Assembly (NCBI GenBank): GCA_024663395.1
Contig: JANFAH010000002.1
Coordinates: 5,332,001-5,396,000 of the forward strand
Direction of reading: 5' to 3'
DNA from: Pisolithus tinctorius
Lineage: Eukaryota; Basidiomycota; Agaricomycetes; Boletales; Pisolithaceae
DNA: 64,000 nt
Position 1 is the stretch's first letter. Every line of letters begins with the position of its first letter. The notes beneath the pieces were generated by a model. The model was not told the origin of the DNA. It saw nothing but the letters and a program-made list of their open reading frames with translations, and searched no databases. Shown one piece after another: positions 11,105 to 62,602 of the stretch. The translations under genes and the position numbers were made by a program.

Positions 11105-11403
11105 TATGGCGTAAAATCTGCACATTTATTTTTCGCGGCCGCACCGCCACACCACCGCGCCCATTCGGCCGTGTCGTTACTTGTCGCGGTTGCACAACCG
11201 CACTACCGCGCCCTCTCAACCGCGTCGTTACCTTCCACAACCACGCCACCGCGCTCATTCGACCGCGTCATTACTTTTCGCGGTCGCGCAACCGCACTAC
11301 CGCGCCCTTTCAGCCGCGTCGTTACCTTCCGCAACCACACCACCGCGCCCTCTCAGCCGCGTCGTTACCCTCCGCAACCACACCACTTGACCGCATGTCG
11401 CTT

Positions 11404-18710: not shown

Positions 18711-19165
18711 CACTTGGTAAATTTACTAGCCAATACAATCATTGTTGTTTCTATATACCTCATGCAAAATTCAATCATTAATGCGCAGGGATTGATTGTT
18801 ATGTTATGTAGGCATATACGAATATACACATAGTATGGTTATATTATATATATATATATATATATAAAGCGACATGCGGTCGAGTGGTGTGGTTGCAGAG
18901 GGTAACGACGCGGCTGAGAGGGCGCGGTGGTGTGGTTGCGGAAGGTAACGACACGGCTGAAAGGGCGCGGTAGTGCGGTTGCGCGACCGCGAAAAGTAAT
19001 GACGCGGTCGAATGAGCGCGGTGGCGTGGTTGCGGAAGGTAACGACGCGGTTGAGAGGGCGCGGTAGTGCGGTTGTGCGACCGCGACAAGTAACGACGCG
19101 GCCGAATGGGCGCGGTGGTGTGGCGGTGCGGCCGCGAAAAATAAATGTGCAGATTTTACGCCATA
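18711..19165 (-). repeat. Right terminal inverted repeat of transposon copy 1
   Basis: Inverted match of 11105-11573, ending GATTTTACGCCATA at 19165 and followed by GACGGC. Contains the (TA)n run at 18844-18868. Immediately inside it, 18676-18710 shares the FDDKV-coding block with the 192-bp array at 2880-3440. Confidence 0.92.
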
Positions 19166-30479: not shown

Positions 30480-31475
30480 ATATGCATGGTACTAAGCCAG
30501 TCCAAGTTATATTGCACAGTTATTCGGACATTTTTCACAGATGTATCTAAGCAGATAACTCAGTCGCGCGCAGACAGTGACGTCTGATATATTCACCTAA
30601 GCAGATAACTAGGTGCGCGGTAAGTATGGTAAAGTAAAAGAGAAAGTATCGTACTCACCTCAGTCGCGCGCAGACAGCGACAACGTCTGAGGTGATGGAG
30701 TTTACAGTGCTAGACTTGAATACTGTAGTTGTAACAAAAGACATGAGACATCGGGTGTTAAACCCGTCTACACATAACGAGGATTGTCTCGATGTGAGAC
30801 GCGCTACATTCTTCGTAAGTAATAAGAAACACGCACAGAAGTGCGAAACACTGTAAACACAATAAGCACAAAGGGCGCGAAAGTTACATAATTGCGCGCT
30901 CAATAGTAAGTGTAAAGTATGAAAGCCTTAGAACGGAAAGTAATTCTCACGCCTCGGAGCGGACGCGTTCAGACTACGCACGACTTGCCAAATCTAACAG
31001 TTTTGAGTAGAGTGTCCAGTCGTTTTTGTGAGCTGGATGGCCTGACGTCATTCTCGTCGGGTTGCCAAGTCGTTTGATCCGATAACGTGCAGAGGACGCA
31101 GACCGTGGTTAGGTCTAGTCCGCCCTGAGCGCTTCCACCACATCCGGAGCCCCCACCTTTCACTTGTATTACAACAGTCCGCGGGATTAGCGATGGGGCG
31201 AAGCGGCACCACACGTTCGCTGAGCTGCCCCGGTTACGTGGTAGTGTTCATTGTTATATCTCAGCATGATTTCTCCTTCGTTTGCACTACTATCAGGTTT
31301 CTCTACGTCTTCACTATATCTACCGGTTATGTCGAAAACTACTTTAGTACATTGGACGATTACGCAACTACCCCACTCGAAATGTGGTGTATATGCATGG
31401 GTTTCTTTTCAGAAAGACTAGCGTGAGGGGTAGGACCGCAGCCTCGGAGTCCGAGTCCACATAGTGTAGTCACAC
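30480..31475. other. Stretch without gene, contains short duplicated motif
   Basis: CAGTCGCGCGCAGACAG occurs near 30563 and 30661, with GACGTCTGA or CAACGTCTGA following. Otherwise no supported gene before the palindrome begins at 31476. Confidence 0.4.
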
Positions 31476-31679
31476 TTAGTCACAACACATGGGCAGCCTG
31501 TGCGCCAAAACACCAACACTTATATAGACCCCGAGACGGGCCCGCCTAAATAGATTAGCCAGTACACATGGACAGGCCCGAGGGACTAAAGTGTGAGCAA
31601 CATATGTACGGGCCCGTAAGTGCATTACCACAACATATGGGAGGGCCCGTGGTGGGTAAGGATGTTGAAACATTTAGAC

Positions 31680-32820
31680 GGGCCTGTGACCAATTAAGAA
31701 TACTGAGCTGCTATAAGATGTGGGCAGGCCTGTCCTGGTAGGTTACACCCCTGTCACAACATCAAGGCGGGCCTGCCTATCATAACATGGAGAGGGTCAC
31801 AACATAAGGACGGGCCTGGGAGGAATATCATTTATGGTGTTGCAACATATAAATGGGCCTGTTCATCATAAGCCATACCCCTGTCACAACATATGGACGG
31901 GCCTGTCAATAGCAAGATGTACCGCTGTTGAAACATAAAGACGGGCCCGTCATTAATATCATTTAATAGAGTCACAACATAAGGGCGGGCCCTTCAGTAG
32001 TATTATTTATATTGTTGCAACATATGGACAGGCCTGTCCACAGTAAGATGTACCTCTGATGAAACATAAAGACGGGCCCTTCAGTAGTATTATTTATATT
32101 GTCACAACATATGGGTGGGCCTGGCCCCAGTAAGATGTACCCTGTCAAAACATAAAGACGGGCCCGTCATTAATATCATTTAATAGAGTCACAACATATG
32201 GGTGGGCCTGGCCCCAGTAAGATGTACCCTGTCAAAACATAAAGACGGGCCCGTCATTAATATCATTTAATAGAGTCACAACATAAGGGCGGGCCCTTCA
32301 GTAGTATTATTTATATTGTTGCAACATATGGACGGGCCTGTCCACAGTAAGATGTACCTCTGATGAAACATAAAGACGGGCCCTTCAGTAGTATTATTTA
32401 TATTGTCACAACATATGGGTGGGCCTGGCCCCAGTAAGATGTACCCTGTCAAAACATAAAGACGGGCCCGTCACTAGTATCATTGAATAGAGTCACAACA
32501 TATGGACGGGCCTGTCCACAGTAAGATGTACCTCTGATGAAACATGAAGACGGGCCCATCAGTAATCTCATGTATAGCATCACGACATATGGACAGGCCC
32601 TTCAGTAGTATAATTTATATTGTCACAACATATGGACAGGCCCGTCCACAGTAAGATGTACCTCGGATGAAACATAAAGACGGGCCCATCAGTAATCTCA
32701 TGTATAGCATCACAACATATGGATGGGCCCTTCAGTAGTATTATTTATATTATCACAGCATATGGGCAGGCCCAGCCCCAGTAAGATGTACCCTGTTGAA
32801 ACATAAAGACGGGCCCGTCA
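31680..32820 (+). repeat. 43-bp GGGCC-rich array, left outer arm
   Basis: The core CAACATATGGACGGGCC, or the variants AAACATAAAGACGGGCC and CAACATAAGGGCGGGCC, recurs about every 41-48 bp (for example 31888, 31932, 31974, 32017, 32060, 32101, 32146). The terminal TIR sequence is itself one such unit. Intervening spacers repeat with a longer period (CAGTAAGATGTACC, AGTAGTATTATTTATATTG). The many GGGCCC sites make it rich in palindromes. Confidence 0.88.
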
Positions 32821-32824
32821 CTAA

Positions 32825-34545
32825 TGGATGTGGTATCCCTGGCACCCACTGAACAGCGGCTTTCAATGGACACCATGCTGGCATGAATTGGAGATGATTT
32901 GAGTGACCCAGATCTCACAAGCTGCAGTCTGGATGTATTTGGCATTAATTGGACTATTGCCAGCCATCCGCCCATCCACATTGAGCGGATGTGGCATCCC
33001 CAGCACCCCCTCAATATTGGCTTGCCATGGACACCATTCTGGCATGGATTGGAGCTAATTTGAGTGACCCAGACCTCACAAGCTGCACCCTTGGGGTATT
33101 TAGCATTAATCAGACTATTGCCAGCCATCCGCCCATCTGTATTGAGCGGATGCAGCATCCCTGGCACCTGCTCAACAGTGGCTTTCCATGGAAACCATTC
33201 TGGCATGAATTGGAGCTGATTTGAGTGACCCAGACCTCACAAGCTGCACCCTTGGTGTATTTGGCATTAATCACACTATTGCCAGCCATCCGCTCATCTG
33301 TATTGAGCGGATGTGGTATCCCCAGCACCCGCTGAACAGCAGCTTTCCATGGACACCATTCTGGCATGAATCGGAGCTGATTTGAGTGACCCAGACCTCA
33401 CAAGCTGCACCCTGGATGTATGTCCCATTAATTAGACTATTGCCAGCCTTCCGCCCATCTGTATTAGGCGGATGAGGTATCCTCAGCACCCGCTCGACAG
33501 CGACTTTCCATGGACACCATTCTGGCATGAATCGGAGCTGATTTGGGCATCTCAGACCTGTCCCAGACCTGACAAGCTGCACCCAGGATGTATGTCCCAT
33601 TAATTAGACTATTTCCAGCCTTCCGCCCATCTGTATTGAGCGGATGAGGTATCCTCAGCACCTGCTCAACAGTGGCTTTGCATGGACACCAGTCTGGCAT
33701 GAATTGGAGCTGATTTGAGTGACCCAGATCTCACAAGCTGCACCCTTGGTGTATTTGGCATTAATCACACTATTGCCAGCCTTCCACTCATCTGTATTGA
33801 GCGGATGTGGTATCCCCAGCACCCGCTGAACAGCAGCTTTCCATGGACACCATTCTGGCATGAATCGGAGCTGATTTGAGTGACCCAGACCTCACAAGCT
33901 GCACCCTGGATGTATGTCCCATTAATTAGACTATTGCCAGCCTTCCGCCCATCTGTATTGAGCGGATGAGGTATCCGCAGCACCCGCTCAACAGTGGCTT
34001 TCCATGGACACCAGTCTGGCATGAATCGGAGCTGATTTGAGTGACCCAGACCTCACACGCTGCACCCTGGATGTATGTCCCATTAATTAGACTATTGCCA
34101 GCCTTCCGCCCATCTGTATTGAGCGGATGAGGTATCCGCAGCACCCGCTCAACAGCAGCTTTCCATGGACACCAGTCTGGCATGAATCGGAGCTGATTTG
34201 AGTGACCCAGACCTCACATGCTGCACCCTGGATGTATGTCCCATTAATTAGACTATTGCCAGCCTTCCACCCATTTGTATTGAGCGGATGAGGTATCCTC
34301 AGCACCCGCTCAACAGCGGCTTTCCATGGAAACCATTCTGGCATGAATCAGAGCTGATTTGAGCGACCCAGATCTCACAAGCTGCACCCTTGGTGTATTT
34401 GGCATTAATCACACTATTGCCAGCCTTCCGCCCATCTGTATTGAGCGGACATGGTATCCCCAGCACCTGCTGAACAGCAGCTTTCCATGGACACCATTCC
34501 CACATGAATTGCAGCTGATATCCATGACCCAGATCATATCTGCCC
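32825..34545 (+). repeat. 161-bp array, left arm (about 10.7 units)
   Basis: Units contain GAGCGGATGTGGTATCCCC, CTTTCCATGGACACCATTCT and TTTGAGTGACCCAGACCTCA, and repeat at a 161-bp spacing; one unit has a short expansion near 33545-33565. Because 161 is not a multiple of three, the staggered ~85-codon minus-strand frames that start every 161 bp are repeat by-products, not genes. Confidence 0.9.
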
Positions 34546-35437
34546 ACCCCCCCTCATGCCCTTTGGAGTTTCTCCCCACAAATCCCCACAGTTTATTTTC
34601 ATCACTCCTCTGAATTTTATGGAATTACATAAGCCACAAAAAGCGCAGCCACTACTCCCAGAAACATGTCCTCATTTGGCATGTGCCTGATATCCAACAT
34701 TCCCACACACTGCCCTCATTGTCCCCAGCCTCCCCTTTCTTTCTGGGCTCTGTCCCTTCACTGTAGGCATTGTATAAGATAGTTACATGTACTATAAGTC
34801 CATTAGACCATCAATGAATGCTTTTCTGCCCATCCTAATGGGCCTAAATAATTCCAATGTCTGATTGGGGCAAAACCAGAAAAAGCAATTGCTTTTTTGA
34901 TATATTGGTCATATCTATCTATTTATTGTGTCCCCTTGAAGGGGCCATGTGTCCCTACAACATATCACAAGTTGATAGGCTGGGATGGCGTGCTTCAAGT
35001 GTAGTAAAACTGGCAATTATCTTAGGGGCTCAAACAAAAAAGTGTTCGCATTTTTGATATATTTGACATGGGCACTTGAAAAAGGAACTAGCTTTGAGGA
35101 TGGTTCTGTACCTACAACATATCAACGGCTCATTATGTGGGGCAGACACCTTGAGGTGTTGTGCCATGATCTCTTCCTGCTGGTATTTAGGGGTTTCATC
35201 ATGTGCTAGGCTGTTTACTGCTATTCTGACTATCTAGGCAGCACTGTAATACTGATTGGCAGTCACCACAACATTCCCAAGCTCATCCCTTCAGGGGAGA
35301 GCACTGGGGAACTGAAACAATCCTCCAGAGAGCGTGGGAAAAGGTGCAAAAAATTACGGAGACTTTCAAAACATATCAAAAACATGAAATTGCTCACCCC
35401 ACACAAGGTATGACATCCAATGGATTGTAGTGCTGAG
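34546..35437 (+). repeat. Single-copy inner arm, left
   Basis: Non-repetitive AT-rich DNA with no recognisable product, inverted exactly in 35656-36547. Short frames here have no family signature. Confidence 0.85.
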
Positions 35438-35655
35438 ATTTTGTTCATATGATAGGACCTCCTGGGACTATATTAGACCCACTTGAGTATAACACAACTC
35501 AGAACTTCAGACTTGGTGTTAGTCTCCTACACCTTGAGTAGTCAAATGTATCCATTGAATGACAGGTCCTAGTTTATCAATTTTTGCATCTTTGGGTTTG
35601 AATGACTGATGAATATAATATGTTACATGTATAAATATCCCATTACCAAGGGACA
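35438..35655. other. 218-bp central spacer of the palindrome
   Basis: Not self-complementary. It begins after GTAGTGCTGAG and ends before CTCAGTACTAC. AT-rich, no open frame of note. It would form the loop if the arms paired. Confidence 0.85.
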
Positions 35656-38600
35656 CTCAGTACTACAATCCATTGGATGTCATACCTTGTGTGGGGTGAG
35701 CAATTTCATGTTTTTGATATGTTTTGAAAGTCTCCGTAATTTTTTGCACCTTTTCCCACGCTCTCTGGAGGATTGTTTCAGTTCCCCAGTGCTCTCCCCT
35801 GAAGGGATGAGCTTGGGAATGTTGTGGTGACTGCCAATCAGTATTACAGTGCTGCCTAGATAGTCAGAATAGCAGTAAACAGCCTAGCACATGATGAAAC
35901 CCCTAAATACCAGCAGGAAGAGATCATGGCACAACACCTCAAGGTGTCTGCCCCACATAATGAGCCGTTGATATGTTGTAGGTACAGAACCATCCTCAAA
36001 GCTAGTTCCTTTTTCAAGTGCCCATGTCAAATATATCAAAAATGCGAACACTTTTTTGTTTGAGCCCCTAAGATAATTGCCAGTTTTACTACACTTGAAG
36101 CACGCCATCCCAGCCTATCAACTTGTGATATGTTGTAGGGACACATGGCCCCTTCAAGGGGACACAATAAATAGATAGATATGACCAATATATCAAAAAA
36201 GCAATTGCTTTTTCTGGTTTTGCCCCAATCAGACATTGGAATTATTTAGGCCCATTAGGATGGGCAGAAAAGCATTCATTGATGGTCTAATGGACTTATA
36301 GTACATGTAACTATCTTATACAATGCCTACAGTGAAGGGACAGAGCCCAGAAAGAAAGGGGAGGCTGGGGACAATGAGGGCAGTGTGTGGGAATGTTGGA
36401 TATCAGGCACATGCCAAATGAGGACATGTTTCTGGGAGTAGTGGCTGCGCTTTTTGTGGCTTATGTAATTCCATAAAATTCAGAGGAGTGATGAAAATAA
36501 ACTGTGGGGATTTGTGGGGAGAAACTCCAAAGGGCATGAGGGGGGGTGGGCAGATATGATCTGGGTCATGGATATCAGCTGCAATTCATGTGGGAATGGT
36601 GTCCATGGAAAGCTGCTGTTCAGCAGGTGCTGGGGATACCATGTCCGCTCAATACAGATGGGCGGAAGGCTGGCAATAGTGTGATTAATGCCAAATACAC
36701 CAAGGGTGCAGCTTGTGAGATCTGGGTCGCTCAAATCAGCTCTGATTCATGCCAGAATGGTTTCCATGGAAAGCCGCTGTTGAGCGGGTGCTGAGGATAC
36801 CTCATCCGCTCAATACAAATGGGTGGAAGGCTGGCAATAGTCTAATTAATGGGACATACATCCAGGGTGCAGCATGTGAGGTCTGGGTCACTCAAATCAG
36901 CTCCGATTCATGCCAGACTGGTGTCCATGGAAAGCTGCTGTTGAGCGGGTGCTGCGGATACCTCATCCGCTCAATACAGATGGGCGGAAGGCTGGCAATA
37001 GTCTAATTAATGGGACATACATCCAGGGTGCAGCGTGTGAGGTCTGGGTCACTCAAATCAGCTCCGATTCATGCCAGACTGGTGTCCATGGAAAGCCACT
37101 GTTGAGCGGGTGCTGCGGATACCTCATCCGCTCAATACAGATGGGCGGAAGGCTGGCAATAGTCTAATTAATGGGACATACATCCAGGGTGCAGCTTGTG
37201 AGGTCTGGGTCACTCAAATCAGCTCCGATTCATGCCAGAATGGTGTCCATGGAAAGCTGCTGTTCAGCGGGTGCTGGGGATACCACATCCGCTCAATACA
37301 GATGAGTGGAAGGCTGGCAATAGTGTGATTAATGCCAAATACACCAAGGGTGCAGCTTGTGAGATCTGGGTCACTCAAATCAGCTCCAATTCATGCCAGA
37401 CTGGTGTCCATGCAAAGCCACTGTTGAGCAGGTGCTGAGGATACCTCATCCGCTCAATACAGATGGGCGGAAGGCTGGAAATAGTCTAATTAATGGGACA
37501 TACATCCTGGGTGCAGCTTGTCAGGTCTGGGACAGGTCTGAGATGCCCAAATCAGCTCCGATTCATGCCAGAATGGTGTCCATGGAAAGTCGCTGTCGAG
37601 CGGGTGCTGAGGATACCTCATCCGCCTAATACAGATGGGCGGAAGGCTGGCAATAGTCTAATTAATGGGACATACATCCAGGGTGCAGCTTGTGAGGTCT
37701 GGGTCACTCAAATCAGCTCCGATTCATGCCAGAATGGTGTCCATGGAAAGCTGCTGTTCAGCGGGTGCTGGGGATACCACATCCGCTCAATACAGATGAG
37801 CGGATGGCTGGCAATAGTGTGATTAATGCCAAATACACCAAGGGTGCAGCTTGTGAGGTCTGGGTCACTCAAATCAGCTCCAATTCATGCCAGAATGGTT
37901 TCCATGGAAAGCCACTGTTGAGCAGGTGCCAGGGATGCTGCATCCGCTCAATACAGATGGGCGGATGGCTGGCAATAGTCTGATTAATGCTAAATACCCC
38001 AAGGGTGCAGCTTGTGAGGTCTGGGTCACTCAAATTAGCTCCAATCCATGCCAGAATGGTGTCCATGGCAAGCCAATATTGAGGGGGTGCTGGGGATGCC
38101 ACATCCGCTCAATGTGGATGGGCGGATGGCTGGCAATAGTCCAATTAATGCCAAATACATCCAGACTGCAGCTTGTGAGATCTGGGTCACTCAAATCATC
38201 TCCAATTCATGCCAGCATGGTGTCCATTGAAAGCCGCTGTTCAGTGGGTGCCAGGGATACCACATCCATTAGTGACGGGCCCGTCTTTATGTTTCAACAG
38301 GGTACATCTTACTGGGGCTGGGCCTGCCCATATGCTGTGATAATATAAATAATACTACTGAAGGGCCCATCCATATGTTGTGATGCTATACATGAGATTA
38401 CTGATGGGCCCGTCTTTATGTTTCATCCGAGGTACATCTTACTGTGGACGGGCCTGTCCATATGTTGTGACAATATAAATTATACTACTGAAGGGCCTGT
38501 CCATATGTCGTGATGCTATACATGAGATTACTGATGGGCCCGTCTTCATGTTTCATCAGAGGTACATCTTACTGTGGACAGGCCCGTCCATATGTTGTGA

Positions 38601-39617
38601 CTCTATTCAATGATACTAGTGACGGGCCCGTCTTTATGTTTTGACAGGGTACATCTTACTGGGGCCAGGCCCACCCATATGTTGTGACAATATAAATAAT
38701 ACTACTGAAGGGCCCGTCTTTATGTTTCATCAGAGGTACATCTTACTGTGGACAGGCCCGTCCATATGTTGCAACAATATAAATAATACTACTGAAGGGC
38801 CCGCCCTTATGTTGTGACTCTATTAAATGATATTAATGACGGGCCCGTCTTTATGTTTTGACAGGGTACATCTTACTGGGGCCAGGCCCACCCATATGTT
38901 GTGACTCTATTAAATGATATTAATGACAGGCCCGTCTTTATGTTTTGACAGGGTACATCTTACTGGGGCCAGGCCCGCCCATATGTTGTGACAATATAAA
39001 TAATACTACTGAAGGGCCCGTCTTTATGTTTCATCAGAGGTACATCTTACTGTGGACAGGCCTGTCCATATGTTGCAACAATATAAATAATACTACTGAA
39101 GGGCCCGCCCTTATGTTGTGACTCTATTAAATGATATTAATGACGGGCCCGTCTTTATGTTTCAACAGCGGTACATCTTGCTATTGACAGGCCCGTCCAT
39201 ATGTTGTGACAGGGGTATGGCTTATGATGAACGGGCCCATTTATATGTTGCAACACCATAAATGATATTCCTCCCAGGCCCATCCTTATGTTGTGACCCT
39301 CTCCATGTTATGATAGGCAGGCCCGCCTTGATGTTGTGACAGGGGTGTAACCTACCAGGACAGGCCCGCCCACATCTTATAGCAGCTCAGTATTCTTAAT
39401 TGGTCACAGGCCCGTCTAAATGTTTCAACATCCTTACCCACCACGGGCCCTCCCATATGTTGTGGTAATGCACTTACGGGCCCGTACATATGTTGCTCAC
39501 ACTTTAGTCCCTCGGGCCTGTCCATGTGTACTGGCTAATCTATTTAGGTGGGCCCATCTCAGGGTCTATATAAGTGTTGGTGTTTTGGCACACAGGCTGC
39601 CCATGTGTTGTGACTAA
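35656..39617 (-). repeat. Right arm of the palindrome
   Basis: Mirror of the left arm: single-copy DNA 35656-36547, 161-bp array about 36548-38268, 43-bp array about 38273-39413 and the terminal segment to 39617. The translated frames of the inner part are identical to those of the left arm. In the outer part, differences such as 31532 c/t, 31537 c/t and 31544 g/a (left base versus complemented mate) are seen. Confidence 0.88.
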
Positions 39618-39689
39618 ATGGACTACATGGGGTCCCGAGTCGGAGGGCAGACTGGCTGCCTCGCCCCTTCCTTATACAAGCCAGGGGGC

Positions 39690-40600
39690 GCCGAGGATGT
39701 ATAAAACTTAGTCCTCCAGTCAGGGTGACGCAGACTATTCTGCACAGTGTCCACCCCACACGCCATGGACTCAACGAACAACTCAACAGGCGTGTACGAT
39801 GCATCCAACACCACCACGATTGAATATCATACTAATATGACACTGCAATCCGCTAGTGGAGCTGGAGAGATACAGCCGAAGACGATAATAGGTATCATCT
39901 TGGGCATAAGTGAGTGTCTCGGCATGCTCCTACCCGCCGAGTAGTATATGATACATACCCCATTCCCCAGCGTGCTTCAAGTATTATCCTGGTCCTCTCA
40001 AGCTGGACGATCTCGTATTGGTTTCAGAAGCGCGCCAATCGACGCCTTGCCGAGGATGTATAAAACTTAGTCCTCCAGTCAGGGTGGCGCAGACTATTCT
40101 GCAGTGTCCACCCCACATGCCATGGACTCAACGAACAACTCAACGTTGTTGGATGCATCGTATGACACGCCTGTCATACTATGCATCCAACACGCTCCCG
40201 AGTTGGGCAATAACATTTATTGTGATTGGAGTCTTCAGTATGTTTGCCCTCCCCCCATTATCCACACCATCTACCTTCTCACACGATCCCGCTTACAGTT
40301 TCAGTTGTTGGTTTCATCTGGACGATTCTACGCGCCACGCTCTTCTTGCGTCGTAGCACACTTCCACTTCCACTGCCACTGTACACAGATGCATCCCCCT
40401 GGTCCAGACCGGTCATCCAGCCCCCTCCCCCGGCATATTCTCCACGTTCTGCTCCACCGCTGTACTCTGCACCAAAAGTCGTTCAGCTACGGTCCGCGCA
40501 AGCAAGCCTCGCCGAGTCAATTGCTTCATCAAGTCTGCGCAACTCGTATAATGAGGTGATGCTGCTGTCTTCTAGCTGGATCCCGAGTTAGTCAAACGCC
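39690..40600 (+). pseudogene. Small predicted membrane protein gene, promoter and start duplicated
   Basis: A block with TATAAAACTTAGTCCTCCAG and the start MDSTNNST occurs at 39690-39790 (ATG 39765) and again at 40046-40145 (ATG 40122). Copy 1 encodes an Asn/Thr-rich N-terminus with several N-x-S/T sites, then KTIIGIILGI and a GTGAGT donor. Copy 2 is followed, in another frame and after a GTATGT..AG intron near 40236-40295, by a hydrophobic run (VSVVGFIWTILRATLF) and a Pro/Tyr-rich tail (QPPPPAYSPRSAPPLYS). The parts would make a single-pass membrane protein, but they are not all in one frame. Function unknown. Confidence 0.4.
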
Positions 40601-58134: not shown

Positions 58135-60752
58135 AGCTCTAACCTTACAGTAGCAAACTCGAACCAAGTGGTACCACAGTATACAACAAGACATGTCATC
58201 TGGACCTTCGGTGTCAACGTCTCGGGCTCTAGGCCCATCCACAAGTGCAACTACATCAGCCTCTACTTCTACGAGAGTCTTGCAAGGCTCGAGTCGACTC
58301 TACGACATAGCTCCCCTTGCAGATGATGGTTCAAACTATCAAATGTGGAAATTCCGAATGCGAAAAGTCTTGACAGTTCGTGGCCTCTGGACCATTGTTG
58401 CTGGTACAGACATGGAGGTAAAACCTCCAGACCAGAAAACTCATCCTGACGAGTATGAGGAATGGCTCCTCAAGGACCAGGAAGCATGTGCACAAATCAC
58501 ACTCACACTCAAGGATGAACCCCTTAGCGGAGTACTATATGCGAAAACTGCTGCTGAGACATGGAAGAAACTCGGTGAGAGATACTAAGGAAAAGGAAAG
58601 CAGACTATTGCTTGCCTTATCAGCAAGTTGTTCCGAGGAACACTTGCAGATGACCAACCAATGGAGATGCAGCTGAATGCAATGCATCAGAAGGCTCACA
58701 TCCTCGCCTCGCTTGGACAACCACTCGAGGACTCACTTGTAGCCATTGCGATGGTCATCTCACTCCCATCGTCATACTCTACCCTCCGCACAATCCTAAT
58801 GTTGTCGAATGACAAGATAACTCCTGAGATGGTTATTTCCCAAGTCCTTGTCAAAGAAAAGTCACAACAAACTTCAAAATCACATTCTGCTCTTGCTGCA
58901 AAGACAAACACAGGCAAGAAGTCAAAAGCGGCAGACAAGAAGAAAAAAGAGAAGAAGTGTGCCTATGCACCATGTGGCAAGACAGGACACACAGAGGACA
59001 AATGCTACAAGAAGAAAGCGGACGAAGCAGCCAAAGCTCCATCCCAAAGTACCTTGCATGGGGATAAGGACAAGTCTAAGGAGAAGTCAGAACTGACAGC
59101 AAAGATTGTGGCCATGGCAGAAGAAGAGGAAGGCCCTCTTCACTTATTTGTAGCCCGCGCACGCCCAGAAACCAGCTCATCAGAGTGGGTCGTAGACTCT
59201 GGGGCATCCGCACACATGTGCTGCCAGTGGTCATGGTTTACGACATTCAGAAAACTGGTACTCTCTCAACCAGTGATCATCGGCAACGGCAGAACAATCC
59301 AAGCCATAGGCAAGGGGAGAATTGAACTCTCCATGCACCTCGAGGATGGATGCACAAGCAAAACCATCCTGCGAGACGTATACTATGTTCCTGATCTCGA
59401 CACGAATCTTGTGTCAGTCCCCTCTTTGGCCTCGAAAGGACTAAAGGTTACCTTTGGAGAACGGACATGCCAGGTTCATGCACAAGGCCAGGTTGTAGCT
59501 CTCGCCACCAAACGAAGATCCCTCTACATACTCGAAGCAAGTGTCGTATCAGGGAGCCATGCTGCCTATATCATCAATACCCCAGATGCACTCGATGCAA
59601 ATGAGCCATACATGGCCCTCACCTCTCGGACGACAATGTCCAAAGCTACTCTAATTACGTGGCACCGCCGTCTTGGACATGCCAATGTCAAACATGTCCT
59701 AAATCTGTTGGACAAGGACATGGTGTCTGGAATGGATATCATAGGGACCAGGGAGATTAGCACACGCACGTGCAAGGCCTGCCTCGAAGGCAAACAACAC
59801 CGGGAACCTATTTTGTCAAAGTCAGATGTGGAAAATCCACGCATACTACATCGGACCTACACAGATGTGTGTGGACCCATGGAGACAACAGCACGGACTG
59901 GCCACAAGTACTTTGTAACCTTCATTGATGGCCATTCACATCATCTAGTGGTAAAATTGGCTAAATCGAAGGACGAAGTCTTTGCACTCACGAAGCAGTA
60001 CTTCGAGAGAGCAGAAGCAGAGACAGGTTGTCGGCCAAACTACCTTCGCAGTGATGGTGGTGGTGAATATGGCTCGAAGGAATTCGAGGTCTACCTGAAG
60101 TCCAAAGGGATACACCATGAGAAGACAAATGCGTATACACCACAGGAAAACGGAGTAGCAGAGCGCATGAACCGCACCATTGTGGAGTCTGCACGTGCTA
60201 TGTTAAGTGACACTGGCCTACCCAACAAGTACTGGGGAGATGCAATCCTCCATGCAGCGCACGTAATAAATCGCCTGCCTACAAGGGCACTCAAGCAAGA
60301 TCTTACACCCTACAAAGCATACACAGGAAATAAACCAGGAATTTCTCATCTACGGGTTTTTGGATGCACAGCACATACCCACATACCTGAGGAAAAGCGG
60401 CAGAAGCTGGGAGTTAAGTCCATCGAATGTCAGTTCCTAGGCTACTCAGAGAACAAGAAGGCGTACACCTGTGTACAGAAGACTTCGGGTCAGATCGTGG
60501 AGTCGCGCGATGTCGTTTTTGATGAGGGAGATGGGACAGACAAATCCCGAGTTCAGATTGACATTGTCGTCAAGGAAACGAAGCCTCTAGCGCCTGCTAT
60601 CAGTGATCAGAACACTCGAGGGCACAAGTACCCACCTACAGAGGGAAATAGCAGCTCTGACAGCTCAGATGCGGCCTCAGAAAGAGGAAATAACCTAGTA
60701 CATGACTGGGGGGACATAGATGACACTACGGCTACTAATGGCGATGAGGCGA

Positions 60753-62602
60753 TGTCACACACCAAAGGTGTTGTGGACATGGTTACAGCTGACTCTGCCT
60801 AACTCGTCAACGAGTTGCGCACAATGCCCATGCATGCAGATGAAGACTAAAGGCCTCATGCGTAGAAAGACTGTTGGACGTGAACAGTCATCCTTCGCAC
60901 AAGATCGAGTCGTCAGTGCTAAAGAGAAAAGAGGAAGCGAGTTAAGCGCGCATTAAAAGAGTTTAGCGCCCGTGTACGGCATTCCGGTTTCCATCATATC
61001 TCCGCTGTTTCCAAAGATATCAACTCGGTTCACATACTCGCTTAAAGTGCTCAGCCCCACGATTCTTCCTTCCAAGTTTGGAGAGGATCCTCACACCCTA
61101 CGCGTTTCTACAGCACTCCATCCATCAGACGCTCATTTCGCGAAGTCCATCAATCATGGCTGCCTCTTCGTCAGTCATCTCGCTTGTCTCATTTGCCAGA
61201 GACAATGGCTATGTATATCTGCCAGGCATTCCCACCAGCTTCCGTCCTGAAGCCCCCTGGTTCATCCCGTCATTGTCAGCCCCATCCCGTCCCATGCAGC
61301 TTGGTCAGCGTGTTCTCCTTGTCAGTATGACTTCCAGAAGGATGTTCTTTGGTTGCCTCAGGTCTGTCACTCGGTTAGAAAGGTCTTATGTGGTCGTTTC
61401 AGTCTCCCCTCTTAATGAAGCATATGGATCGTTCCTCCCTGCTCCCTGCACCGTCTTTATTCCAATCTCGTCCATCATTCTTCCCACATTGCGACAGCTG
61501 CAGTATAATCTACTGTCCTCCAGCCTCCCTGATCGCATTCATGACGAGTATGACATGCATCTTGCCTTCTTACTGCAAGATCCAGCAGAAGACGTCCCCC
61601 CTTCTCCTCCTCCTCCATCAGAACCCTGTCCATGAAGTTTTTGTTAACTTTGCTGAGAGGATGGAAGGGTGGGAGACGCGATCGCGTATGCTCTCATTGC
61701 CCCACAGACCCCCAACGCCCTAGCCCCCTTTGACGCCTGACTCATGCCCTTCAGTTCTGGAATTAATACTTCCCTATCTGGAAACACCATCCATCTGTCA
61801 TGCCATCTTTGGATCTAGAGATGTCTCCGCCGAGATCTGACTTGCATCGCCACCCCCTAATGTGATATCAGTGCGCTTACTCAGTTTCTGACTCTGTTTG
61901 ACTCATTCTGTGATATTTTGACTATCCTTGACTCGTTCATTGCCAATACTTACCAATCCTCTCTGCTTGCTTACTTTTCATTTCTCGCTTACTCATCATG
62001 ATTACTCAGTCCTTACTCATTACTTACCAAGTGTTTGTGCCTTGTTTGTCACAAGCTGTGCTCCCCCCATAGTATATAAACCCCCATGTACTTAGCTACC
62101 CACAATCAATCAGGAATCAATTCAGAAGCAGTCCAGCAGTCAGTCCAGTGCCTATCTCATCGTCGACAGTTGAGGCTCCACGAAGGGGTCTATCTGTCAT
62201 CATTTGTATACTTGGTAGTTGAGGCTCATTTGGAAGAGTCTACCTGCCTCCATTATTCATCTGAAGCTTCCTCTTAGTCAGCAGTCTTTGTCATCCCTCC
62301 ACTCCTGCGTAACTCGTCATCAACTTGCGCCAGGAGCACATCTTATTAAAGTCCATCATCCCAAGTCCTTTCAGCTGAACACCTTTGCTCTGTTCAGCAT
62401 CCCCCATCCAATCATCACTTGCTTGTCTTCTCCTGCGTAACTCGTCGTCGACTTGCGCTAGGAGCACCTGCCATTGAAACTCCCCCCACTTTAGGTTTCT
62501 CTGCACTCCAGGTTCCGCGGAGGCAAACCACCACTCGCTTTTATTTGTCTTTTGGTGTTGGATTTGTTTGGTTTTCACCAGCATTCCACACTTTGACTCA
62601 CA
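60753..62602 (+). mobile_element. Solo LTR-like element, copy B (1.85 kb, TSD GCGA)
   Basis: Same TGTCACACACC...GACTCACA ends as copy A, flanked by GCGA at 60749-60752 and 62603-62606. Removing the element and one duplication (1,854 bp, divisible by three) rejoins the Copia frame as GDEA-IANDQVVSTPEPE, proving insertion into a formerly continuous polyprotein. It differs from copy A by scattered substitutions and an 11-bp net length change near 62105. Confidence 0.93.
61078..61635 (+). CDS. ORF of unknown function inside solo LTR copy B
   Basis: Counterpart of the ORF at 3895-4452, same 185-codon length, likely true start at 61156 (MAASSSVISLVSFARDNGYV). Substitutions are spread along the frame without stops or frameshifts. 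No family is recognised. Confidence 0.4.
   Translation: MERILTPYAFLQHSIHQTLISRSPSIMAASSSVISLVSFARDNGYVYLPGIPTSFRPEAPWFIPSLSAPSRPMQLGQRVLLVSMTSRRMFFGCLRSVTRLERSYVVVSVSPLNEAYGSFLPAPCTVFIPISSIILPTLRQLQYNLLSSSLPDRIHDEYDMHLAFLLQDPAEDVPPSPPPPSEPCP

Follow-up and report, generated by a model that had tools for sequence, protein, structure and literature searches.

A palindromic, foldback-shaped element in Pisolithus tinctorius as a probable non-autonomous derivative of KDZ (Kyakuja-like) transposons

Introduction

What is the 8-kb palindrome found in a 64,000-nucleotide stretch of the genome of Pisolithus tinctorius, an ectomycorrhizal member of the Boletales, how would it move, and what keeps its two arms alike? 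The whole stretch, referred to here as the window, corresponds to positions 5332001–5396000 of contig C2 (GenBank accession number JANFAH010000002.1), and genome-wide searches took in the 92.5-Mb assembly. The element in the window, named W, is best read as a non-autonomous, foldback-shaped derivative of KDZ (Kyakuja-like) transposons with mirror arms that are kept alike by continuing conversion, and we put the probability of this reading at about 0.83. Other copies are named by locus identifier (L0xx), apart from the copy at C6:1651698-1664024 (L034+L013+L035), which is called C6, and an 18-kb element at C2:1403791-1421884 (L029+L030), which is called K.

The palindrome lies inside a mobile element

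A sequence-only reading of the window had proposed that paired positions obey x + y = 71093, and this held throughout, with 31476-35437 mirrored by 35656-39617 to give 3,962-bp arms free of indels around a 218-bp spacer. The arms mismatch at 10 of 3,962 positions. As identity in 100-bp bins was 0.96-1.00 within the arms and 0.17-0.35 immediately outside, a chance origin of the mirror is excluded. The layering of each arm into a 43-bp array, a 161-bp array and a non-tandem part was borne out by Tandem Repeats Finder (TRF), which placed the 43-bp-type arrays at about 31882-32825 on the left and 38268-39292 on the right. No open reading frame (ORF) of more than 153 codons (ATG, GTG or TTG starts) was found in the arms, the ORFs listed recur with the 161-bp repeat, and an Rfam scan of W gave no match at gathering thresholds.

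The ends of the palindrome had been mistaken for the ends of the element. A further 18 or 17 bp, conserved but non-mirrored and referred to here as the A and B termini, lie outside the palindrome and are followed by a 7-bp target duplication (Table 1). The copies share sequence past the palindrome, namely CACATAGTGTAGTCACAC on the A side and, reversed, GACCCCATGTAGTCCAT on the B side, with TTAGTCACAAC located inward of both.

Both ends were present in 10 of the 14 sequences examined, each with a 7-bp duplication outside, which was perfect in eight (W, L010, L012, C6, L031, L032, L033 and K) and carried a one-base mismatch in two (L011 and L016). For nine elements, W not among them, the flanks were rejoined and searched together, with 40 of 158 candidates scored, and sequence continuous across the junction was present elsewhere for seven of the nine, namely L010, L012, L016, L031 and L032 of the palindrome class, the miniature element L033, and K. 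L010 has one such empty site and L012 has four, with 100% identity across the query; identity was 96% for L016, 97% for L031 (154/193 bases), 88% for L032 (176/193), 91% for L033 and 93% for K. As assemblies of the genus contain both primary and secondary (allelic) scaffolds (PMC10066745), some of the copies may be alleles. A candidate empty site for W was rejected, as it proved to be paralogous and differed at the junction. Judged from the assembled sequence, W can be regarded as a real, mobile, non-autonomous element.

Mirrored contigs are a known class of artefact, and a fold-back chimera or a collapsed repeat could in principle have produced this structure. An assembly artefact is nevertheless very improbable, as a perfect 7-bp duplication surrounds the whole unit and other copies have different duplications at unrelated sites, the arms carry arm-specific differences and are of unequal length in L010-L012, and empty sites exist for five palindrome-class copies.

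An 18-kb partner with the same ends encodes a KDZ transposase

The sequence-only reading had called for a genome search with the element ends for further copies and an autonomous partner, and it yielded further copies and a coding partner. A 34-base A pattern located 118 places in the genome and a 33-base B pattern 88 places (up to 3 mismatches each). Several A-B pairs are ~18 kb apart, and K is the one that was read. K is 18,093 bp long, has the same A and B ends as W and the duplication TCTGGAT, and encodes KDZ (PF18758, 2.2e-26), CxC2 (1.7e-25) and Tet_JBP (1.6e-19) domains in Pfam. The closest KDZ relatives in the protein database are from P. tinctorius (85-88%), and NCBIfam returned nothing for four transposon proteins. 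No KDZ was found in W itself. The conclusion that there was no KDZ partner, drawn from a first KDZ profile search in which 150 of 463 candidates were scored, was overturned by the reading of K.

The distribution of ends and of KDZ matches was then compared using 100 listed of the 118 A places, all 88 B places and, for the matches, 49 of 150. Neighbouring inward-facing ends up to 60 kb apart were A-B in 50 cases, A-A in one and B-B in none. Inward of TTAGTCACAAC, B sides of the K type continue ...CATATA, and those of the palindrome class (23/88, 0-1 mismatch) continue ...CACATG, as on the A side. Of the 33 K-type pairs, 26 enclose KDZ matches, as do all 3 other pairs, but none of the 14 palindrome-class pairs does; when the remaining listed matches, together with those listed in the first KDZ profile search, were checked by eye against the 14 palindrome-class intervals, none lay inside.

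As W shares its ends with the KDZ-coding K, and KDZ is found in 26 of 33 K-type pairs but in none of the 14 palindrome-class pairs, W is considered a non-autonomous KDZ derivative. The earlier suggestion of an element mobilised in trans is thus the best-supported one, given the lack of a long ORF, the further copies, the 7-bp duplications, the empty sites of other copies and the coding partner. The shared ends, the duplications and the A-B pairing suggest that a K-type transposase would perform this mobilisation.

W was also described as foldback-type, which is apt for its shape, but a relationship to FB or Galileo of Drosophila is not supported. Long inverted repeats with internal tandem arrays, and a 7-bp duplication as in Galileo, would suit a true element of that type. 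Such an identity is, however, extremely doubtful, because the partner with the same ends encodes a KDZ transposase together with CxC2 and TET/JBP domains, and no P-type hit was obtained among the ten ORFs of K scanned with Pfam.

The subterminal regions of K contain the same GGGCCC-rich repeats as W, at densities of 38 and 29 GGGCC/GGCCC words per kb (0.9 per kb in the window outside W), and the similarity between W and K is confined to these regions of K. A total of 765 of the 8,157 21-mers of W are present in K, mostly within its left 2.1 kb, and this overlap would suit a palindrome that, like a Mu-killer trigger, is a source of hairpin RNA and silences the autonomous KDZ family. Such a role would account for its being maintained. 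However, BLAST found nothing in K that matches the 161-bp array, the inner arm or the spacer, and a silencing role appears improbable.

A 1,211-bp miniature element, L033 (C2:712532-713744), carries A and K-type B ends and the duplication CTGAGAA. Its A and B subterminal regions are 88% alike over 182 columns, and its CpG observed/expected ratio is 0.05.

The arms tend to evolve in concert

Twenty copies were fetched for comparison of the arms, and L015, L019, L021 and L028, in each of which one arm is absent, were excluded, leaving 16 copies and W (17 elements). Over about 430 inner sites, the two arms of the same element differed at 0-4 sites in 12 of the 17, and the distance to the nearest other element ranged from 0 (W, L010 and L011) to 6.1%. 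A tree of the arms of 15 elements (L018 and L026 left out) united both arms of L014, C6, L020, L022, L024, L025 and L027, and did not resolve those of L009, L012, L017 and L023. Within the 500 bp of 161-bp array that adjoin the inner arm, own arms were identical in W, L009, L012 and C6, each of which had 3-21 differences from the nearest other element; own-arm differences were 1 in L014, 7 in L010 and in L011, and 13 in L017.

Pairs of elements were also compared column by column for concerted sites, which are fixed in both arms, and for vertical sites, over 1,380 inner and 1,000 outer columns. The inner ratios (concerted:vertical) were 31:0 for L012/C6, 29:0 for W/C6, 15:0 for W/L012, 9:1 for L011/L012 and 5:0 for L010/L011, and the outer ratios for these five pairs were 75:0, 68:0, 30:0, 9:0 and 7:0, where arrays of different make-up may misalign. 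L023 and L024 represent one insertion, with the 6-bp duplication in common and flanks that agree at 97-99.5%; they have 5 concerted sites and, at the outer rim, 5 vertical ones, and L025/L026 have 4 concerted and 1 vertical. The two arms of W are equally long and those of C6 agree to within 1 bp, but in L010-L012 the lengths are 322 or 483 bp apart. Relative to the A end, the spacer lies one way in six elements (W, L009, L010, C6, L016 and L017) and the other way in four (L011, L012, L014 and L015), as crossing-over between arms would give, and a near-spacer arm difference moves together with it. It therefore appears that the arms tend to evolve in concert, and the concerted sites and spacer flips point to arm-to-arm conversion as the likely cause.

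The alternative is that each copy arose as a palindrome recently and independently, by hairpin or fold-back replication, and that no continuing conversion is required. Fold-back priming yields exact palindromes, the arms of W differ at so few sites, and those of L012 and C6 are identical over the outermost 600 bp too. However, the same spacer and arm boundary are found in copies with arms that differ by 6-13%, which indicates a single origin of the palindrome; W and L010 share A/B differences in the outer 1,000 bp (0:5) that whole-arm copying at birth would erase; and the single insertion L023/L024 has concerted sites beside vertical ones. Repeated recent birth is thus unlikely. The sequence-only reading had offered hairpin-mediated duplication in place of mobility; it may describe how the arms became mirrored, but it is no alternative to mobility.

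On the reading favoured here, events probably proceeded as follows. A transposase from the ~18-kb relatives would recognise one A and one B end plus repeat-rich subterminal DNA, and the 8.2-kb unit would be cut out and then inserted with a 7-bp target duplication. The mirror symmetry would go back to an older palindromic element, flanked by 6-bp duplications and derived from another KDZ-domain transposon. Once this element lay inside a KDZ derivative, repair or conversion between inverted arms would have rewritten the B side from the A side, sparing the last ~17 bp. Ongoing conversion and crossing-over would then keep the inner arms alike and flip the spacer, and the two unlike tips would be retained, probably because mobility needs both.

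CpG decay in the arms

Nine of the ten differences between the W arms are CpG to TpG/CpA changes. Compared with a CpG observed/expected ratio of 0.9 for the remainder of the window, the inner arm stands at 0.14 and the spacer at 0, a depletion that would fit methylation-linked decay. Clustering of the mismatches in the outer arm was considered as an effect of conversion only, and this was rejected because nine of the ten are CpG transitions. With the count restricted to CpG sites the contrast persisted, 8 of 21 differing within the outer 690 bp and 0 of 58 deeper in the arm (Fisher p 8e-6), but it is to be read with caution as five of the nine outer W differences are common to L010.

Observations that weigh against the proposed origin

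The following observations weigh against an origin of W from KDZ transposons with continuing conversion of its arms. Homogenisation is uneven, with own-arm differences of 9 in L017, 15 in L020, 17 of 327 in L018 and 25 in L026, and one arm of L016 is rearranged. In the tree, a single near-spacer difference (W left = L010 left = L011 right), and not the element, determines how the arms of W, L010 and L011 group, and in the 500 bp of array the B arm of L010 has 3 differences from the W arms but 7 from its own A arm. The W/L010 pair gave concerted:vertical ratios of 1:1 in the inner and 0:5 in the outer columns, and the A and B arms were therefore inherited separately in the outer part. Array alignments with differing repeat numbers may misalign and inflate the concerted counts, mostly in the outer arm, and assembly polishing could have added to arm identity.

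With respect to the partner, a further class that makes up 12 of the 88 B places has another B tip and also reads CACATG, with KDZ matches in 2 of 2 pairs. As this KDZ-bearing class has it too, CACATG on the B side is by itself no proof of copying from the A side. Of the 41 KDZ matches with at least 85% identity, 26 are inside a listed pair and 15 are outside any, and many of the listed A-B pairs are 25-58 kb across, for which nesting or wrong pairing is possible. Empty sites were found for neither L011 nor C6 among the 40 of 158 candidates scored, and W has no clean empty site, as the two paralogous loci without the element diverge at the junction (22/61 positions alike). Finally, the two TET+ Kyakuja families of Laccaria have 7-bp duplications, CA..TG ends and no terminal inverted repeats (TIRs) (Kojima 2025, PMC12730594), whereas the termini of K and the W family are CA..TC and their A and B subterminal regions are similar. 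Because of these ends, the family is called Kyakuja-like and is not filed as Kyakuja.

The core of the palindrome comes from a separate palindromic element

The inner part of the arm, previously thought to be single-copy, is single within one arm, but relatives of it, and of the spacer, are present elsewhere in the genome. The spacer gave 32 genome matches, some of them partial. Several more-diverged spacer copies belong to a separate palindromic element, the core element, with ends TATGGAAAGC...GACAATC and 6-bp duplications. Stand-alone core elements are 2.7-3.6 kb long, with the duplications GTTTTC (L023 and L024), TATGGG (L025) and CTGAGT (L027), and one end only was seen in L026 and L028.

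A 14,538-bp element with core-type ends was flanked by the duplication GAGCGC and has inverted ends of about 1.26 kb that are 86% alike. It encodes a KDZ domain (PF18758, 2e-45), and its similarity to the spacer covers 103 of the 218 bases. This element, taken as the parent of the core, fits features of IS3EU, namely a 6-bp duplication, TIRs of over 30 bp and TAYGG..CCRTA ends. The ends and duplication agree with the description of IS3EU in Kojima 2025 (PMC12730594), but the gene is KDZ by Pfam, and the name is left open.

In W, the 161-bp array takes the place of the outer ~440 bp of the core arm, including the core ends, and it begins to do so at an identical point in the two arms. As the junction is the same in both arms, one junction copied from arm to arm would be simpler than two identical events.

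The locus L021 (C4:3013300-3023100) contains a KDZ fragment beside 43-bp-type repeats and one core arm with spacer, and is possibly a fossil of a core inside a KDZ derivative before symmetrisation.

Among palindrome-class pairs lacking the spacer, L031 and L032 were read, and C2:91480, C42 and C7:2271084 were left out. A second core type was considered for these pairs and rejected, as L031 is without a centre, with one inner arm left, and L032 has a different palindromic insert. This insert (L032:1976-3547, on C23) is 1,572 bp long, with the outer 533 bp on each side mirrored without mismatch. Its ends are CAGTGAGGGACAAAAGTG, it is located between TTA and TAA, and a genome search with it gave 889 first-look candidates, of which 40 were scored. 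We take it to be Tc1-like.

A broader proposal, which we advance tentatively and consider less probable than not, is that these are self-symmetrising transposons, in which conversion and spacer inversion, perhaps via repair of excision gaps or hairpins, re-template the arms and spare the two unlike ends. At least three families in this genome would then have been symmetrised, namely the 7-bp KDZ, the 6-bp KDZ-domain/IS3EU-like and the TA-flanked Tc1-like family, and this, if true, would suggest that palindromes are made by a general process, whether of the host or of its transposases.

Comparison with known systems

W works like Galileo and Tetris but belongs with KDZ. With TET+ Kyakuja, the nearest known system, it shares the 7-bp duplication, the 5'-CA start and, in its partner, the combination of a KDZ transposase with a TET/JBP dioxygenase. 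TET+ Kyakuja has been reported from several orders of Agaricomycetes, and Boletales showed only TET+ Kyakuja (Kojima 2025, PMC12730594). A palindromic gene-less derivative is a feature of the W family, and none is described for Kyakuja in the accessible text of PMC12730594. The TET/JBP protein of K matched the solved relative CcTet at 1.7e-23 (Tet_JBP 1.6e-19), and CcTet has been called close to the AG type of TET/JBP (Kojima 2025, PMC12730594). The KDZ transposase with a CxC domain is also found in KDZ1-3 of Cryptococcus, which are active DNA transposons (PMC12810828). These differ in having TIRs of 139-241 bp and 4-8-bp duplications, and no palindromic derivative is mentioned in the available part of that paper.

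Galileo of Drosophila, in the P superfamily, has long repeat-bearing ends, 7-bp flanking sites and gene-less copies, and it has been proposed that one TIR is lengthened by repair that uses the other as template (PMC3573991). W resembles it in its long inverted ends with internal tandem repeats, its gene-less copies and its 7-bp flanking sequences. Galileo differs in its P-superfamily transposase, in its longest TIRs of about 1.26 kb and in repeat numbers that vary independently between TIRs, whereas the arms are of equal length in W and nearly so in C6, with the differences given above for L010-L012.

According to one study, most foldbacks are Mutator-like, although exceptions exist, and separate lineages may have given rise to them independently (PMC4079207). 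Tetris of Drosophila, like W and other foldbacks, is gene-less with tandem arrays in its arms, and homogenisation was suggested in 2 of its 3 complete copies. It is a suggested Mutator with 8-10-bp duplications, against 7 bp in W, and its own autonomous partner could not be found (PMC4079207). The present family is a foldback-shaped one in a fungus with its coding partner in the same genome. No fungal foldback or palindromic KDZ element was recognised in a literature search that had most subscription journals outside its coverage, and in the literature searched, KDZ with TET/JBP was a superfamily without a palindromic derivative.

The copies form a natural series for the homogenisation of inverted repeats, the reach of conversion tracts and the survival of two unlike tips in a mirrored molecule. 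Because K encodes a dioxygenase of the TET/JBP type and nearly all differences between the W arms fall at CpG sites, the family also offers a single testable setting for methylation, subterminal repeats and mobility.

Features of the window

Table 1. Coordinates of W and its parts in the window
Feature	Position	Strand	Basis
Whole mobile element W, 8,177 bp	31458..39634	.	Conserved A and B ends, 7-bp duplication
Left target-site duplication CCGAGTC	31451..31457	.	Matches right duplication perfectly
Right target-site duplication CCGAGTC	39635..39641	.	Matches left duplication perfectly
A terminus, 18 bp, non-mirrored	31458..31475	+	A-pattern genome search
B terminus, 17 bp, non-mirrored, GACCCC... 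on minus strand	39618..39634	-	B-pattern genome search
Left subterminal region, degenerate 43-bp repeats, resembles K subterminal regions	31476..32825	+	TRF, comparison with K
Right subterminal 43-bp-type repeats	38268..39617	-	TRF, comparison with K
Left 161-bp tandem array, 10.5 copies	32826..34540 (TRF 32826-34533)	+	TRF
Right 161-bp array, 10.5 copies	36553..38267 (TRF 36560-38267)	-	TRF
Left inner arm, 897 bp, homologous to arm of separate palindromic element with 6-bp duplications	34541..35437	+	
Right inner arm	35656..36552	-	Mirror of left inner arm
218-bp spacer, either orientation relative to A end among copies	35438..35655	.	Genome matches, orientation table

Just downstream of W, at 39690-40180 in the window, a TATA-like word and a gene start (MDSTNNST...) are followed by a second copy that is 96-98% similar. 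Repeats of 94 bp are located at 11131-11386 and 18884-19144 and, from a by-eye reading of the TRF consensus, are seemingly one unit in opposite orientations. A Copia-type gag-integrase open frame of 737 codons occupies 58589-60802.

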